Below are positions 2,397 to 64,000 of a stretch of DNA of 64,000 nt, in pieces. The stretch covers positions 2,115,501 to 2,179,500 of the forward strand of contig NC_134962.1 of the NCBI RefSeq assembly GCF_965638725.1, given 5' to 3'. The number at the start of each line of letters is the position of its first letter. The stretch's first letter is position 1. Both the position numbers and the translations under genes were made by a program. The notes beneath the pieces are model-generated. The model had not been told where the DNA came from, searched no databases, and worked only from the letters and a program-made list of their open reading frames with translations. Source of the DNA: Aptenodytes patagonicus. Lineage: Eukaryota > Chordata > Aves > Sphenisciformes > Spheniscidae.

Positions 2397-2531
2397 ATTC
2401 TCCCCCGGGCGCTGTCCTGCACTGTTCTGCTCCTCCTGCTCGTCGCTGTGCTGAGCAGAGGGAAGAGGTGCAGCATTGCCAAAATCCTCCGGCAGTACCA
2501 CGCTGTCATCTTCCACGAGATCCAGAACCTG
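2397..2531 (+). CDS. C20orf204: C20orf204-like exon with signal peptide and helix A
   Basis: The acceptor is a pyrimidine-rich run ending GCGCAG at 2391-2396 and the donor is CTG|GTGAGT at 2531/2532. The 45 codons encode a Leu/Val-rich secretory signal, the sequence SRGKRC at the likely mature N terminus, and a first amphipathic helix. It opens in phase 0 with no Met, so an upstream exon must supply the start codon. Confidence 0.78.
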
Positions 2532-4135
2532 GTGAGTGGGGGGGGGGGGTGGTGTGTGTCTGCTCGGGGCCCCGGCTCTCCACTCTGGGGGATGCTGCCG
2601 AGCTGGATGCAGCCCCGCTGTGGGATGTGGGTGGGGAGGGATGAGCCTGGAAAGCTTAGTATGGGGTTGGCAGCTTTGCTGGCGTTTCTGGGGAGAGCGC
2701 TGTGTTTAAATGGGGGATTCCTGCCCCACATGGGAGGCATGGATGCTTTAGGGTGCCTGATCTCCTCCTTGCTTTATTTCTCCAGAAAAACCTGAGTGGG
2801 TCGGAGGACAGGGGCGGAAGGGCCGGACCGGCTTGTCGTTCGGACAAGGTGAGCACCAAGGGACCCGGGGCTGGGGCGTCGTGTGGGCTGAGCTCCCGTG
2901 GAGCCGTCGAGCCTGCCCTCCCCGCCCGGGGCCACGTGCTTCTCTCCTCTCCAGGACCAGAAGATCCTGCTCTCCATCTACAACATCAGCATGTCCCTGC
3001 GGGAGGTGGCGGCTGGCACCCTGCGCGGCCCCGAGGAGCTGGCGGTGTGGAAGGTGGCCAGAAACACTGACTTCGTGCTCAGGGAGAACTGCAGGAAAAT
3101 CAGCAAGGTGGGAGCCCTGCCCCTTCCCAGTCATGCCAGTGGCTCCCAGTTCCCCATCCTGGGGGGTGAAGGTCTGTGCTGGGTTTGTGGCTGAGGGATG
3201 CTGACGGCACGTCCCGGTGAGCTTTAAACTGGCCGGGGAGGGAAGTCCGGCTGTGGCAGCGTGGGACAGGCTGGTGGGTTTTTTTTTTACCACCAGCTCC
3301 CAAGCAGGTTTGTCTGCCTGTGCCGCGATGCCATGGCTGATGGGAACACAGAGCCTCATCCCGGTGGGATGCTTGCCCGGTGGGTGGGCACACCCAGCCC
3401 TGCTCTTGCACCCGGGTGCTCGTAGGCAGGAACTGGGATTTCTCCCCAAAGGGCTGGTCTGGGCTCCCCCGGCATCTCCGGGGCTTTGCTGGGGAAACCC
3501 CGGCCAGGAGGATCCCCTATGGCAGCCGGCAGCAACTCATTAACTAGTGGGGAAACCCCGGTGCAGCGGAGCGCCGGCTCCCCGGCTCCGACCTGGCACG
3601 GTGCTGGGGTCGTCCTCCCTGCCATCACCAGGGAAATCAGCTGGGGGGGTTGCTGGTGTGGGATGGAGGTGCTGCTGGTCTGGAAAGCCACCTGCAGACC
3701 CAACCTGGCCGTCTGCCCTACCCGTGGATGTGCCGTGGGATGCGTGCTGCCGGCTCGGGGCAGGGATGGCCAGCTCTGGGGACCTGAGAGCACATCCTTG
3801 CTGCGGCCACGGGCGGTTTGGCCACCCCAACCCGCAGCTTTGCCCACGCAAACCCCATGTGTGTGGGGTGTGATGTCCCAGGCGCATCCTCGGTGCTGGG
3901 GCAGTGGCTTTTGTCCCCCTGATTAACGCCTGTGTGGTGGTGGTGGGGTGTTTCTGCTCCCTTGGCACGCTGACCGCAGAGCCCGCCGCGCATCCCGGCA
4001 CAGCCCCGGCGCAGGGGACCCGGCCGCAGGAGGAAGCAGCTGCGGGAGATCGGGAGGAAGGTGGAGAGGCTGGCGACCTGCTGGGAGAAGCTCTACGCCC
4101 TGCACACACCCCACCGCGCCCCGCGGGACTCGTAG
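2397..4135 (+). CDS. C20orf204: C20orf204-like small secreted helical protein (four coding exons, start exon not found)
   Basis: Coding exons are 2397-2531, 2786-2848, 2955-3107 and 3980-4135 (stop TAG 4133-4135). All internal junctions have AG/GT borders and all introns are phase 0, giving 168 visible codons. The N terminus is a hydrophobic signal-peptide core (TVLLLLLVAVL, about visible residues 10-20), followed by four predicted amphipathic helices, about one per exon apart from short exon 2: IAKILRQYHAVIFHEIQNL, KILLSIYNISMSLREV, a helix around ELAVWKVARNTDFVLRENC, and QLREIGRKVERLATCWEKLY. Four cysteines follow the signal peptide. N-glycosylation sequons are NLS in exon 2 and NIS in exon 3. 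The ending TCWEKLYALH and the Cys pattern match my memory of human C20orf204 (TCWEKLFAL), which lies between PRPF6 and SOX18, the same order as here. Secretion is inferred; no receptor or function is known to me for birds. A human product has been linked to hepatocellular carcinoma, but that says little about native function. Confidence 0.8.
2786..2848 (+). CDS. C20orf204: C20orf204-like short linker exon
   Basis: The acceptor TTTCTCCAG ends at 2785 and the donor AAG|GTGAGC is at 2848/2849. The 21 codons are Gly/Arg/Ser-rich, with an N-glycosylation sequon (NLS) near the start and one Cys. This fits a flexible A-B loop of a helical bundle. The human protein, as I recall it, also has a sequon at this point. 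Confidence 0.75.
2955..3107 (+). CDS. C20orf204: C20orf204-like exon with helices B and C
   Basis: The acceptor CTCTCCAG ends at 2954 and the donor AAG|GTGGGA is at 3107/3108. The 51 codons have heptad-like spacing of Leu/Ile/Val and carry an NIS sequon and one Cys (RENCRK). A Gly/Pro-containing turn (GTLRGPEE) separates two predicted helices. Confidence 0.78.
3980..4135 (+). CDS. C20orf204: C20orf204-like last coding exon, helix D
   Basis: The acceptor GACCGCAG ends at 3979. The 51 codons and TAG encode a very basic stretch (RRRGPGRRRKQ, a possible dibasic processing or heparin-binding site) and then the most conserved segment, with TCWEKLYALH. I saw no AATAAA or ATTAAA close downstream (the first AATAAA noticed is at 7181), so the mRNA end is undetermined. 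Confidence 0.8.
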   Translation, partial: SPPRIPAQPRRRGPGRRRKQLREIGRKVERLATCWEKLYALHTPHRAPRDS

Positions 4136-10786: not shown

Positions 10787-12181
10787 CTAAACCCGCTCCT
10801 TCAGAGCCAGAGCTTCTTCCTCGGCGGTGCTGCCTGACCCTGGGCTCTCAGCCTGATCCTGGATGTTAAAATACAGCGAGTCGTCGAAGCAGAGCTGCTC
10901 AGGAGGCCGGGCCAGGCAGGGCAGCCGGAGCACGGCACCGGCGAGCAGCCCGGCGAGCAGCGAGCCGCCGATGGCCACCGCCAGCCCTGCGGCCTGGCAC
11001 AGCGCCTGCCTGCCCGCCCCGCGGTCCCCCCACCGTCCCCCCGCCGCCTCGCTGGCATTGCCCCCGACGGGGGACATCTGGGAGAAGGGGGACCCAGAGG
11101 TGTCCTCGGATGCCACCAGGATGGCCACGGCGCTAGCTGCGGCGCCGAGGATGCCGGGCAAGCCATGGAGGTTGTGGATGCCGCACTGGTCCTGGAGCGT
11201 GAGCTTCCTCGCCAGGAATGGGGTGAGGAACCTGAAGCCAAGGACGCATGCCACAGCTGAGAGGCTGCCCAGGGCAAGAGCGGCCACCGGTGGCACGGCC
11301 ATGTCAGCCACCGCGCCGATGGCCACCCCACCGGCCAGGCTGCCGTTCTGCAGGTGGCCGGGGCTGAGCTTACCGTCCCTCTCCAGCAGGCTGGAGGCCA
11401 CCACAGTGGTCACGGCGCTGGCGCTCATGGCCAGGAGAGTGTTCAGGATGGCGCGATGCTGGGCAACTCCTGGTTGGCAGAGGACGGCCACGAAGCTGGG
11501 CCAGAAAACCCAGAGGATGAGTGTCCCCACGAGGGACAGGAGGTCGGAGCGGGGTGTTGGGGTCTCCTTGGGGTGCACTGGCTGCCGCGCCGCCCCAAAC
11601 AGAGCCTTGGACACGCCAAGGCCGAAATAGCAGGAGAAGACGTGGATCGTGATGGTGCCCCCCACGTCGAGGACACCCAGACGGGTGACGATGGCCCACT
11701 CGCTGGCAAGGTAGATGGGGACTTCACAGGTGGCCACAACGAGGAGCTGGCAGGGGCTGGTCCTCCCCAGGATGGCCCCCACGGAGATGAGCACTGTAAC
11801 GGCAGCGAACTCGGCGGTGAGGAGGTTGTGGAGGTCCAGGTGTACCTGGCCGTGGTGGAAGTGATGGAGCAAGCCCTGCAGCACCAGCGCCCATTGCGTG
11901 GAGAAGTTGAGCAGAAGGAAGTTGTGGGCGATGGCGCTGAGCCCGTAGAGGGGCAGGAACGTCAGCAAGAGCCCCAGCCCCACCACCAGCATCACCTGGA
12001 TGTCCTGGAAGAGGGGGAAGATGCCGTAGAGCTGGTTGGCCACCAAGTTGCCATCCTCCGCCCGCGCCGAGGGCTCGTCGTAGGTGACGAAGATGGCGAA
12101 GAAGAGGAGCAGGGCGCCCTGGAAGAGCCCCAGGGAGAGGGGCAGGAGGCGGTGGGGGCGGGTGGGGGGTGGCGCGGCCAT
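10787..12181 (-). CDS. Rh-type ammonium transporter, single-exon gene
   Basis: 464 codons, ATG at 12181-12179 and stop TAG at 10789-10787, with no intron; classical Rh glycoprotein genes have about ten exons. A polytopic membrane protein with about 12 hydrophobic segments. Rh-family hallmarks include GGTITIHVFSCYFGL (pore His in the Amt/Rh signature), LWVFWPSF, AILNTLLAMSAS, QNGSLAGGVAIGA, FLTPFLARKLTLQDQCG, CGIHNLHGLPGILG (second pore His) and LRLPC near the C terminus. Both pore histidines and the Asp two residues before the GG of the first signature are kept, so it probably conducts NH3/NH4+ and perhaps CO2. The N-glycosylation sequon of the first extracellular loop, common in RHBG/RHCG, is missing. 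The frame stays open 117 codons further upstream, but ATG 12181 has a good context (G at -3 and +4) and sits where family proteins begin. It could be the non-mammalian Rhp lineage or a retrocopy of RHBG/RHCG. Confidence 0.88.
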   Translation of the reverse strand: MAAPPPTRPHRLLPLSLGLFQGALLLFFAIFVTYDEPSARAEDGNLVANQLYGIFPLFQDIQVMLVVGLGLLLTFLPLYGLSAIAHNFLLLNFSTQWALVLQGLLHHFHHGQVHLDLHNLLTAEFAAVTVLISVGAILGRTSPCQLLVVATCEVPIYLASEWAIVTRLGVLDVGGTITIHVFSCYFGLGVSKALFGAARQPVHPKETPTPRSDLLSLVGTLILWVFWPSFVAVLCQPGVAQHRAILNTLLAMSASAVTTVVASSLLERDGKLSPGHLQNGSLAGGVAIGAVADMAVPPVAALALGSLSAVACVLGFRFLTPFLARKLTLQDQCGIHNLHGLPGILGAAASAVAILVASEDTSGSPFSQMSPVGGNASEAAGGRWGDRGAGRQALCQAAGLAVAIGGSLLAGLLAGAVLRLPCLARPPEQLCFDDSLYFNIQDQAESPGSGSTAEEEALALKERV

Positions 12182-12254
12182 CCCAGAGCGGACAGGAGGG
12201 GACGGTGACCGGCAGGGCGGCTGGGCGTGGGGCGTCAGCTGGGCAGCACTCGCG

Positions 12255-12315
12255 GGGTGAGCTCTGCTCACTCCTACCTCGGGGGTTTTATGGCCACGGT
12301 TAATTTTTAACTGAA
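12255..12315 (-). promoter_or_regulatory. Putative promoter of the Rh-type gene: TATA-like box and HNF1-like palindrome
   Basis: On the minus strand, CATAAAAC (12292-12285) lies about 105 bases upstream of the ATG and would place initiation near 12255-12262. Just upstream, 12299-12311 reads GTTAATTTTTAAC, which differs from the HNF1 consensus GTTAATNATTAAC at one position. HNF1 factors drive kidney, liver and gut genes, which would suit an ammonia transporter. The motifs are seen; promoter use is inferred. Confidence 0.45.
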
Positions 12316-12699
12316 GATATATGTGCCAGAAAAGGAGTTTTTTTCCCCCTCCCTTCTTTAAACACAATGCCCATAAATCACCCACGTGCTCTTGTTTGGC
12401 CGCCATAAAAAGTGAGGGGACGGGTATGATTTTGAAGGGAAACAAGAGAAACCTGCCATGAGGCAGAGTGTGGAGAAGGATGACCTGCGAGGAGCCGCCC
12501 AGGGACGAGGGTACCACGGCACGCACCCCCATTTAACCCATCCCCATTCCCGGGAGCAGCGACCGCGCTGCTGAAGCCCCCAGAGTGATGCTGGGAGCTC
12601 AGACTCCCCCAGCTCCCGGCCTGGCTCTGCCGCATCCCACCCGGGGGTGGCTCCGGCACCACCACCCCACGCTGCGGGATGATGCGCGTTTTGCTCGGC

Positions 12700-30980: not shown

Positions 30981-31831
30981 CTAACCGGTGATGCAGGGGC
31001 TATAGTAAACAGCGCTGCTGGCATCGGACAAGGCGGATATCAAGCTGCTCTCCTCGCAGGAGATGCTTCTAGGAGTCACTTTGGACAAGGAGACATGGTA
31101 AGGGAGTCCCGAGGCTTCGGGACGAGTCCTGCTCATGTTCAAATACTGGTCAAACTCATTGCGGTCAACGTCTGTCCACAGCTCGGTTTGGTTCAAGTGA
31201 TCCACGCTCTCCATGTGGTGGGCTTCGGGTGGGGGCGAGAGCTGGCCCAGGTGGGCGGAAAGCCCGTTCTGAGTTCCCGAGCACATCTGGTTGTAGTATA
31301 TGCTGGAGGGATGGGGAGTCCTCATGGCGTCGGCCAAGTGCGATGGGGTCTGCGCATAGGGCACTGCCACGTCCCGCCCCATGCACTTCTCCTGGGGAAA
31401 GTCCATCTGGTGATGGTGGTGGTAGCCACGAAAGGGCATCATGTTGCAGTCATCCTGCATGTGCGGAGGGAAAAACGCCGGCTCGGTCTGTTCCAAGACA
31501 TCCAAGGGAGACATCTCAGGAGTTGGCAAGCCATAGTTTTCAATATCCGACCCCATGGAGTGGAGTTCTCTGAAGTGGTTAAGTGGGGGAGGCTGGGGGT
31601 GGCCCGGCTGGCTGCCGCCATGGTGACTCATGCTGAAGTTGTCACTGCAAGGCTGGGAAAGGTTATGCAGGAGGATATTGGGTTCCATCCTCTTGATTTT
31701 CTTGGCTTGCTTCTTTCTCCTTGGGCGGTACTTGTAGTTGGGGTGATCCTGGAGATGCTGGATTCGCAGCCGCTCTGCCTCTTCCACGAAGGGACGCTTG
31801 TCGCTGGCGCTCAGCGCTTTCCACGACTGGC
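30981..31831 (-). CDS. SOX18: SOX18 exon 2 (coding part)
   Basis: The acceptor is TTCCAG|GCCAGTCG on the minus strand (31831). It completes the HMG box ([20 protein letters not shown]) and encodes the transactivation and SOX-C region, ending CITG* (stop TAG 30983-30981). Confidence 0.95.
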
Positions 31832-33977
31832 CTGGAAGGGGAAAGTGAAGCTCTGTGACACTGGCTCGGCCGCCCGGCGCTGGCTGGGGCACGGGGGCAC
31901 CCGGGGAGAGGGCACCCCTGGGGTGGGAAGGGCTCCCTCGGCTGGTTCGGCACCTGAGCGGGGTCCTGGTGCTGGCAGGAGGAGGGGTTGGGGAATGGGA
32001 GCCCAAGCAGGGCTGTCCCAGCAGCAGGCTCGGGCTGTGCCCAGCGCTTCGGCACAGTGGGAGAATGGGGGTGCAAAGCCTCGGGGGGGGCCACGGGAAC
32101 CCCTTTGCCAGGGCAGGGGATTCTGCCTCCCACTGGTCCCCGGGGTGCCTGCTTCCCTGCATCCCACATCCACAGCCCCGCTCCTCTGCGGCCCCAATCA
32201 CCCATCCCCAAACCCCGCACCCCGCAGCCCCATATCCTGAATCCCGTGTCCCCGCACCCCGCAGCCCCATGTCTCCGCATCCTGCTGCCCCGTCTGGCCA
32301 TATCCTGCTTCCCGTAGTCCCGCATCCTGCAACTCCGTCTACCCATATCCTGCTTCCCGTGTTCCCACATCCCGCATCCTACAGCCACGTATCCCGCATC
32401 CTGCAGCCCTGTGTTCCCATATCCTGCATCCCCGCAGCTGTGTACCCCACAGCCCGGTATCTCTGCATCCCACAGCCTTGTTTCCCTGCATCTTGCGTAC
32501 GTGTAGCTCTGTATCCTCACATCCCGCAACCCACAGCCCCGTATTCCCGCATCCTCTAACGCCATATCCCACAGCCCTGTAGCGCTGCACCCCGCAGCCC
32601 TTGATCCCACAGCCCTGCATCCTTACAGCCCATGTCCCCGCAGCCCTGCAGCCTTGCAGCCCATGTCCCTGCAGCCCTGCAGCCTTGCAGCCCATGTCCC
32701 CGCAGCCCTGCAGCCTTGCAGCCCATGTCCCCGCAGCCCTGCAGCCTTGCAGCCCATGTCCCCGCAGCCCTGCAGCCTTGCAGCCCATGTCCCCGCAGCC
32801 CTGCAGCCTTACAGCCCATGTCCCCGCAGCCCTGCAGCCTTGCAGCCCATGTCCCCGCAGCCCTGCAGCCTTGCAGCCTGCATCCTTTGGTCCCATATCC
32901 TTACAGCTTGCATCCCGCAGCCCTCTAACCTTGCAGCCCACAGCCCTGCATCCCCCAGCCCCGTATCCCGCAGCACCCTGTCCCTGCCTCCTGCAGCACC
33001 CCATCCTTGTAACCCAGTTCCTGCACCCCCATATCCTCGCAGTCTGCGTCCCGCAGCCCTGTACCCTTGCAGCCTGGCTAGCACAGCCCCGTATCCTTGC
33101 ATCCCATGTCCCACTGCCTCATATCCTCGCAGCCTGCATCTCACAGCCCCGTACCCTTGCAGCGCACATCCCAATGCCCCGTACCCCTTCATCCCGCACT
33201 CCCAGCCCTGCATCCCTGCACCCCATACCCCTGCAACCCACGTCCCCAGTCCTGTATCCCTGCATCCCGCTGCCCCGTACCCCTGCAGCGTATATCCCCA
33301 GCCCTGTAACTCTACACCCCGCTGCCCCGTACCCCTGCAGCCCACATCTCCAGCCCTGTATCCCTGCATCCCGCTGCCCTGGACCCCTGTAGCCCGCATC
33401 CCCAGCCCCACAACTGCCTATCCCTGCATCCCCAGCCCCACACCCCCACATCCCTGCATCCCCAGCCCCGTACCCCCGTATCCCACAGCCCTGCGCTCTT
33501 GCAGCCCGCATCCCCAGCCCCGTACCCCCCGCACCCCTCCTCCCGCAGCCCGTCCCGCTCACCCAGCATCTTGCTGAGCACGGCGTTGTGCAGGTCGGGG
33601 TTCTGCTGCGCCAGCCGCTTGCGCTCATCCTTCGCCCAGACCATGAAGGCGTTCATGGGCCGGCGGATGCGGGAGTCCTCGCCGGCCTTGCCCTCGGCGC
33701 GGCCCGCCGGGGGGCTGTATCCATAGCCCGGCTCCGGGCTGGGCGTGCGGCTGGGGGCCGCGCCGGGGGCCGCGCCGGGGGCCGCGCCGCCGGGGCCGGG
33801 GCCGAAGGCGAAGCCGGGCTCGGGGCTGGGCGTGCGGCTGGCGGGGGAGGCGGCTCCCGGGGGGCGCGGGAAGGCGAGCCCGGGCTCAGCGGCCGGCACG
33901 GCGGCGGTGACCCATGAACAGTCGCCCCGGGGTTGCGATATCTCCTCTCGGCAGTAGTTAGACTCAGATATATTCAT
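30981..33977 (-). CDS. SOX18: Transcription factor SOX18 (SOXF group), two exons
   Basis: Exon 1 CDS is 33977-33563 and exon 2 is 31831-30981; the GT-AG intron splits the HMG box after KMLG. The product is 421 residues. The HMG box (about residues 103-181) has [20 protein letters not shown] and [12 protein letters not shown] with the usual basic tail. The C-terminal SOXF region keeps EFDQYLN, the beta-catenin-binding-type motif, and the ending [19 protein letters not shown]. The human protein ends almost identically. SOX18 is a nuclear regulator of endothelial, lymphatic and feather/hair development and is known to bind ACAAT-type sites and MEF2C/RBPJ partners. The start MNISESNY has a purine at -3, and residues RGDCSW match a short conserved N-terminal patch. 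Position left of TCEA2 and in opposite orientation fits SOX18 rather than SOX7 or SOX17. Confidence 0.95.
32150..33540. repeat. Minisatellite filling the SOX18 intron
   Basis: Most of the 1.7-kb intron is a degenerate array of short C-rich units (CCCGCATCC, CAGCCC, CCTGCAGCC). At 32641-32878 it resolves into eight near-identical 31-bp copies starting CAGCCCTGCAGCCTTGCAGC at 32641, 32672, 32703, 32734, 32765, 32796, 32827 and 32858. Because 31 is not a multiple of 3, frames here show a 31-residue period. These frames are not genes. Confidence 0.92.
33563..33977 (-). CDS. SOX18: SOX18 exon 1 (coding part)
   Basis: Starts at ATG 33977-33975 and ends at the donor CTGG|GTGAGC (33563/33562). Encodes an Ala/Pro-rich N-terminal region and the first half of the HMG box. 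The motif SRTPSPEPG occurs twice, about 30 residues apart, separated by [13 protein letters not shown]. Only one SPEPG is expected from the mammalian protein as I recall it. Confidence 0.93.
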
Positions 33978-34204
33978 TCCAGCTGGACAGCACTTTGTGT
34001 CCGACCCGACCGGGTGCCGGAGAGAGAACCGGGTCCCGCCGCGTCCCACCGGGTCCAGCAGCCGCCGAGCAGCAGCCCCGCCGCTCGCCTCCCTCGCCTG
34101 CGCTTCTGGGGGATTTGGGGTCGGCTTGTTATGTTTTGGTTTCTTTTCTTTTTTTTCCTCTTTTATTTTTTTTTTCCCCCCCTTTCCCCCCAAAAAAAAC
34201 TTTT

Positions 34205-34264
34205 GGGATGATGCTGGGCTGGAAGGGGCAAAATATAGCCGGGCTGGACCAATCAGCGGGGCGG
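34205..34264 (-). promoter_or_regulatory. SOX18: SOX18 core promoter
   Basis: Read on the minus strand, the order is a GC box (34264-34258), an inverted CCAAT box (CCAAT on plus at 34249-34253) and a TATA box TATATTTT (34237-34230). This spacing places initiation near 34200-34210, giving a 5-prime UTR of about 230 bases that begins in an A/G-rich run. Confidence 0.6.
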
Positions 34265-34433
34265 AGGGGAGGAGGAGGAGGAGGAGGAGGACGACGACGA
34301 CGACGACGACGACGAGAGGGAGAGGGAGAGGAGGAGGAGGAGGAGGAGGAGATGAGGGGGAGGAGGAGGAGGAGGAGGAGGAGGAGGAGGAGGAGGAGGA
34401 GGAGGAGGAGGAGGAGGAGGAGGAGGAAGGGGG
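34265..34433. repeat. (GAG)n/(GAC)n polypurine tract upstream of SOX18
   Basis: About 170 bp of GAG/GGA triplets with an inner run of eight GAC units. It abuts the SOX18 GC box. A homopurine tract of this length can form triplex or quadruplex DNA. Glu-, Ser- and Pro-homopolymer frames through it are artefacts. Confidence 0.92.
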
Positions 34434-34545
34434 TCGTCCCCAGGCACCAGCAGGAAAAGCCACCCGGGGAGGGCCGGGCTGGGACCGGTGTGGACGCTGC
34501 TGCCCAGTTCCCTTCCTTCCAAGGAGGAGGGTTATTAATTTTTTC

Positions 34546-34610
34546 TCTGTCTTCTTTTCCTTCCTTCTTTTCTTTCTTTTCTTTCTTTTCTTTCTTTTCT
34601 TTCTTTGCAA
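34546..34610. repeat. (TTTTC)n microsatellite
   Basis: About 60 bp of TTTTC/TTTC units on the plus strand, upstream of the SOX18 promoter purine tract. Confidence 0.85.
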
Positions 34611-35187
34611 GCCCCTTTCCTGGCTACTTGCGATCTGCCCGTGCCTCCCGCAGCCCTGCCGAGCCGAGGGAGGGAAGTGTTTAGATTTGCCTGCCAGGCT
34701 GCCTGTTTGCAGGCAGACAGGGATGCTTGGGGCTTCGCGTTTATTTTTCTTATGACTTATTTCATGTGTGTGTTTTGGCCAGCGTTCCCCGTCCGGGGTC
34801 GGGAGCAGCCCTGGGGTGAAGGCAAGGGTGAGCCCTCTTCCCCCGGCAATTTTCTGGTGGGAATTTCAGTGCCGGGGGGAGAAACGGCTCCTTGCTTTTA
34901 AGCACTGTTCACATGAAAAGAAATGTGTTGCCAGCCTGTCAGCCTAGGGACTGTTGAGGAATGGTGGGTTCACCGGCAGCCGGGTGATTGCAGCTAAAAC
35001 CTGCCTCCCGAGCTGCACTGCTGGGGCTGGCGCGGCCGTGCCGTTGCCGCACACGCCATGGGCACGGCAGCGTACCCACGGCACGCTGCCATCGGCGGCC
35101 GTGGAGAAGCAGCACGTCCCCCCAGTGCCAGGTCACTGCTCCGCTCGCTCGGCTGCCGTCCAGCAGAGATTTGCAGTGCCAAGAGCC

Positions 35188-51052: not shown

Positions 51053-63674
<12,622 letters not shown>

Positions 63675-64000
63675 ATATCCTTACTGTACGGGGCTTCCTC
63701 AAGGGTCTGCATGCCTCCAGGCCATGAAATGAATGTGCTCGGAGGAAAAATGGGGACTGTCTTTCTTTGCATAAATGTTCTGCTGCAACTCTGCTTGTCA
63801 GGGCTCTGGGTCTGGTTCCAGCTCTGCTTGGCTGAGTCCTGGGTCACTAACGAACCACTGGTGTGGTGTTGGGAGCTCAGGGCAGACCCCTTGCTGGTGT
63901 GATGGACACGGTTATTTCCTTCCTGTTCATGCCATAATGGACTGTAATCCCCAGGTTGTCTTTCCCATCAAAATCCTATTTCCTGTTCTCAGCTCTGCTT
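63675..64000 (+). other. TCEA2: TCEA2 intron 6, start of a U12-type AT-AC intron (continues beyond window)
   Basis: Opens with ATATCCTTAC. No U12 branch-point match (TTCCTTRAY) followed closely by AC is seen before the edge, so the 3-prime splice site lies outside. Ordinary intronic composition otherwise. Confidence 0.8.

Follow-up and report, generated by a model that had tools for sequence, protein, structure and literature searches.

C20orf204 of Aptenodytes patagonicus is probably a short-chain helical cytokine gene paralogous to IL-7 and TSLP

Described relatives and the gene under study

Short-chain class I helical cytokine genes follow a four-exon plan with phase-0 introns, in which successive exons carry helix A, the AB loop, helices B and C, and helix D. 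Within this class, the IL-7/TSLP group is small, governs lymphocyte development and allergy, and has receptors that are drug targets. IL-7 of mammals contains six cysteines (PMC4063794), and its helix-D tryptophan is buried in the core (PMC7396566). TSLP is described with the disulfides C34-C110 and C90-C137 plus C69-C75 (PMC5382266). The literature treats human C20orf204 as a nucleolar cancer protein derived from a long non-coding RNA (PMC7969625). Here we analyzed the C20orf204 gene in a 64,000-nucleotide stretch of the Aptenodytes patagonicus genome (the window; C14:2115501-2179500, within 1.35 Gb), and we consider that C20orf204 probably encodes a short-chain class I helical cytokine paralogous to IL-7 and TSLP.

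In the literature searched, from which subscription papers were mostly absent, no assignment of C20orf204 to IL-7 or TSLP was found, and an earlier description is possible. This analysis adds the proposed branch (IL-7/TSLP), the agreement with IL-7 in intron positions, a likely start exon, and a rationale for the cysteine arrangement. If the placement is correct, the human gene would be re-read as encoding a secreted ligand, whose receptor, tissue of origin, and role could then be tested directly.

Gene structure and protein features

Four exons of C20orf204 are visible in the window, with GT/AG borders throughout, and they encode 168 residues when spliced. The three introns between them are all phase 0. 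Of the five cysteines in the visible chain, residue 8 belongs to the putative signal peptide and residues 25, 62, 112, and 151 to the mature protein; there are also two N-x-S/T sequons (residues 47 and 76). The exons and features are as follows.

2397..2531, plus strand: exon 2, 135 bp, flanked by phase-0 introns on either side; remainder of the putative signal peptide and helix A, ending in YHAVIFHEIQNL before gt
2397..2456, plus strand: hydrophobic stretch, putative signal peptide (ILPRALSCTVLLLLLVAVLS), read from the sequence
2469..2471, plus strand: mature Cys 1 (residue 25), start of helix A, from the sequence
2469..2531, plus strand: helix A (CSIAKILRQYHAVIFHEIQNL), placed by homology only, from alignments to IL-7 and TSLP
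2786..2848, plus strand: exon 3 (AB loop), 63 bp, phase 0, ending in C-RSDK before gt
2789..2797, plus strand: N-glycosylation sequon NLS (residue 47), counterpart of NLT at 72-74 in the provisional human sequence
2834..2836, plus strand: mature Cys 2 (residue 62), four residues ahead of intron 3, from the sequence
2955..3107, plus strand: exon 4 (helices B and C), 153 bp, phase 0
2958..3011, plus strand: helix B, at exon residues 2-19 in the single-exon AlphaFold2 model
2982..2990, plus strand: second sequon NIS (residue 76), within helix B, from the sequence and AlphaFold2
3030..3104, plus strand: helix C, at exon residues 26-50 in the single-exon AlphaFold2 model
3090..3092, plus strand: mature Cys 3 (residue 112), end of helix C, from the sequence and AlphaFold2
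3980..4135, plus strand: last exon (CD loop and helix D), 156 bp including the TAG stop
4007..4036, plus strand: polybasic RRRGPGRRRK, CD loop and start of helix D, from the sequence; the human counterpart is likewise arginine-rich
4022..4105, plus strand: helix D, at exon residues 15-42 in the single-exon AlphaFold2 model
4079..4084, plus strand: mature Cys 4 (residue 151) and Trp 152 in ATCWEKLYAL, matching KTCWNKIL of human IL-7 and RSCWNKF of the bird's own IL-7

Each AlphaFold2 model covers a single contiguous exon (2955-3107 or 3980-4132). The former contains helices at residues 2-19 and 26-50, separated by a BC loop of six residues (mean predicted local distance difference test [pLDDT] 93.4, predicted template modelling score [pTM] 0.68), and the latter contains one helix at residues 15-42 (mean pLDDT 79.9, pTM 0.46). 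Because the BC loop is short and the AB and CD segments are longer, an up-up-down-down bundle fits these models. A first-pass annotation of this DNA had described the layout of a secreted cytokine of four predicted helices, with phase-0 introns only, 168 visible residues, four cysteines after the signal, and two sequons. The exon borders and exon joining agree with the intron phases and length, and the cysteines and sequons are all present in the spliced sequence; among the helices, B, C, and D appear in the single-exon models, whereas A is placed by sequence and homology only.

The human C20orf204 sequence used for comparison is a provisional one, presumably close to the published protein, with which it agrees in length (189 residues) and in its sequon (72-74), with 31 arginines versus 32 published. 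Like the bird chain, it has a hydrophobic N terminus, as read from the sequence. The mature bird protein and the provisional human protein align with a score of 253, whereas none of 5000 shuffles exceeded 70, and they are 45% identical. Common to both, and in register, are all four mature cysteines, one sequon (KNLS/KNLT), and the motif ATCWEKL[YF]AL, so the cysteine conservation on which the first-pass annotation had staked its reading holds for these two sequences. The human AB loop is ~22 residues longer than that of the bird. As judged by sequence comparison, the bird gene is orthologous to the human gene for the C20orf204/LINC00176 product, and human C20orf204 presumably lies near SOX18 at 20q13.33, as it does in the window. 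The human N-glycosylation site at 72-74 has been published (PMC7969625).

The exon that precedes 2397-2531 probably supplies only the start codon. The candidate is an ATG directly followed by gtgagt at L008:9314-9316 (C14:2114814-2114816), 687 bases upstream of window base 1. We prefer this candidate because it has the best donor (score 10.2, top among five candidates above 7 in the 12.4 kb searched), lies in a GC-rich stretch (a 500-base bin with 83% GC and a CpG ratio of 0.79), and yields an N terminus, M-ILPRALSCTVLLLLLVAVLSRGKRC..., that lines up in register with the beginning of the provisional human sequence. An alternative within the window, an ATG at 906-923 reading MRFCSK before gt, has a donor score of 7.7, below that of the preferred candidate. 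The region surrounding the latter (L008:8670-9909, just upstream of the window) is GC-rich and holds long open frames on both strands, which probably result from base composition.

Likeness to IL-7 and TSLP

The closest comparison is with the IL-7 gene of the same genome. A genome search with human IL-7 returned a weak match (E 1.24) reading FFRSIFRVLPLLLVLSPVNSSSCAMGNRTTEIRVKYENILSHDIDEL before gt, and further exons were located downstream.

C2:33423822-33435208 (L010, L011): own IL-7 gene; a very short first coding exon (MFH+1) followed by exons of 143, 87, 153, and 153 bp

Once spliced, the protein hits Pfam IL7 over residues 22-173 (1.3e-23). Exon 1 (MFH+1) was the best among three candidates, and exon 3 scored highest among seven open segments, some of them overlapping, that end in a cysteine plus two to eight residues before gt; its cysteine-plus-four ending was therefore partly selected for. 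The choice is supported by the agreement of this ending (C-NDTQ) with human CDANK and mouse CDDTK.

The four-exon, phase-0 layout of the general rule is found in C20orf204, and the own IL-7 gene shows it too. Intron 2 falls 11 residues past the helix-A tyrosine in both own IL-7 (YENILSHDIDEL) and C20orf204 (YHAVIFHEIQNL), and in either gene the cysteine ahead of helix B is followed by four residues and then intron 3 (C-NDTQ, C-RSDK), with the proviso that the IL-7 exon was partly chosen by its cysteine. The exon for helices B and C measures 153 bp in each gene, and the last exons measure 153 bp in own IL-7 and 156 bp in C20orf204.

In sequence, C20orf204 is closer to IL-7 and TSLP than to the further cytokines compared, and TSLP is its second-best profile. 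The Cys-Trp pair of IL-7 helix D has an apparent counterpart in TCWEK of C20orf204. In the same profile test, IL-7 and TSLP showed no mutual likeness (11.6); both match C20orf204 though not each other, and this gene, if its placement is right, may link the two. Human TSLP searched against the genome gave noise only (best E 0.498), from which TSLP absence is not inferable because own IL-7 itself surfaced only at E 1.24. The first-pass suggestion of a diverged helical cytokine or growth factor is thus supported by exon layout, cysteines, and this likeness, and "helical cytokine" can be sharpened to a putative paralogue of IL-7/TSLP.

Proposed mode of action

The C20orf204 protein would be glycosylated and secreted as an up-up-down-down bundle with its four mature cysteines at one pole, at the start of A, just before B, at the end of C, and late in D. 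Disulfides would join the A-start cysteine with that of the C end and the pre-B cysteine with that of helix D, in TSLP-like fashion, and the helix-D tryptophan would pack in the core as in IL-7. The polybasic CD loop may retain the protein close to its source, where it would bridge two class I receptor chains. From kinship alone, the likeliest receptor would be IL-7R-alpha with either the common gamma chain or CRLF2, driving JAK/STAT5, a choice that we offer tentatively. IL7R-like exons are present in the genome at C34:14249492-14254162, with three matches to the human IL-7R-alpha ectodomain (E 2.1e-8 and 1.6e-5, and a weak third with an internal stop).

It is conceivable, though somewhat doubtful, that the IL-7 receptor-alpha axis has a third ligand in C20orf204, beside IL-7 and TSLP, in birds and humans. 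In zebrafish, IL-7 loss is mild and IL-7R-alpha loss is severe (PMC9465101); such a third ligand, if real and present in fishes, could account for part of this gap.

Alternative interpretations

Several results weigh against kinship with IL-7 and TSLP. No Pfam family, IL7 included, fits bird or provisional human C20orf204, and a search of the PDB with phmmer and a two-row profile gave no cytokine up to E=10. Single-sequence alignment of human TSLP to C20orf204 stays at noise level. Masking TCWEK raises the single-sequence p to 0.027 (bird) and 0.31 (human), and for mouse IL-7, masking Cys and Trp abolishes the signal entirely. Exon-wise comparison with own IL-7 leaves both the B/C exon (499/2000) and the AB-loop exon (66-378 of 1000) within chance; the profile score fell from 25.5 to 23.8 when own IL-7 minus its exon 3 was included, and one shuffle scored 25.6 versus IL-21. 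The genes also differ in the AB-loop exon (87 bp in own IL-7 versus 63 bp) and in intron 1 (phase 1 in IL-7 versus phase 0), and C20orf204, with four mature cysteines where IL-7 has six, lacks those of the AB loop and the helix D start. C20orf204 might be a short-chain class I cytokine without special IL-7/TSLP kinship, its layout being general and its TCW motif convergent or from an older ancestor. Given the intron positions and the ranking of IL-7 and TSLP above other cytokines, we regard this as unlikely.

A long-chain helical cytokine or hormone (growth hormone, EPO/TPO) is suggested by the 2023 PROST report of helical-bundle likeness between human C20orf204 and somatotropin (PMC9992864). 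However, the growth hormone (11.6) and EPO (10.0) profile scores lie near the shuffle mean of ~11 (four other families), the modelled helices are short (~18, 25, and 28 residues), and the exon positions agree with IL-7, so that a long-chain identity is very improbable. The least probable of these alternatives is that C20orf204 acts in the nucleus or nucleolus to regulate nucleolin and ribosomal RNA, the role published for the human protein in liver cancer. That protein shows nucleolar staining, binds nucleolin and ribosomal RNA, and raises 47S ribosomal RNA on over-expression (PMC7969625). The same study reports EndoH-sensitive bands and some co-staining with the endoplasmic reticulum, the terms "signal peptide" and "secret..." are absent from its main text (PMC7969625), and the N terminus is signal-peptide-like in bird and provisional human sequences. 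The arginine-rich CD loop would explain RNA binding by a mis-sorted or GST-fused protein, and the nucleolar behaviour may be a property of this loop in protein that misses the secretory route. We retain the short-chain cytokine related to IL-7 and TSLP as the probable identity of C20orf204.

Other features of the window

A SOX18-like gene lies on the minus strand at 30981-34865, with an HMG box over two open stretches followed by a Sox17/18 central domain (Pfam Sox17_18_mid match in 30981-32378, minus strand), placing C20orf204 near SOX18. Between its parts is a strongly skewed, repetitive-looking stretch (32001-34000, GC skew -0.31). An uninterrupted 581-codon frame of the ammonium transporter/Rh family (PF00909, E=2.2e-54, residues 141-538) occupies 10787-12532, minus strand; because Rh genes usually have many introns, it looks like a single-exon copy. 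GC content falls from ~60% to 43-48% over 52001-64000.

Comparison with IL-7 and TSLP

With IL-7 (PF01415), C20orf204 shares the exon layout, two residue-exact intron positions, the 153-bp B/C exon, the helix-D [T/S]CWxK motif, and cysteines at the start of A, before B, at the end of C, and in D, whereas its polybasic CD loop differs from IL-7. TSLP shares the basic stretch of the CD loop and the A-start/C-end and pre-B/D cysteine positions, and its helix A resembles that of the bird protein (mouse TSLP CNFTSITKIYCNIIFHDL, bird CSIAKILRQYHAVIFHEI). In contrast, C20orf204 is without the AB-loop C69-C75 pair of TSLP, and its helix-D cysteine is differently positioned.
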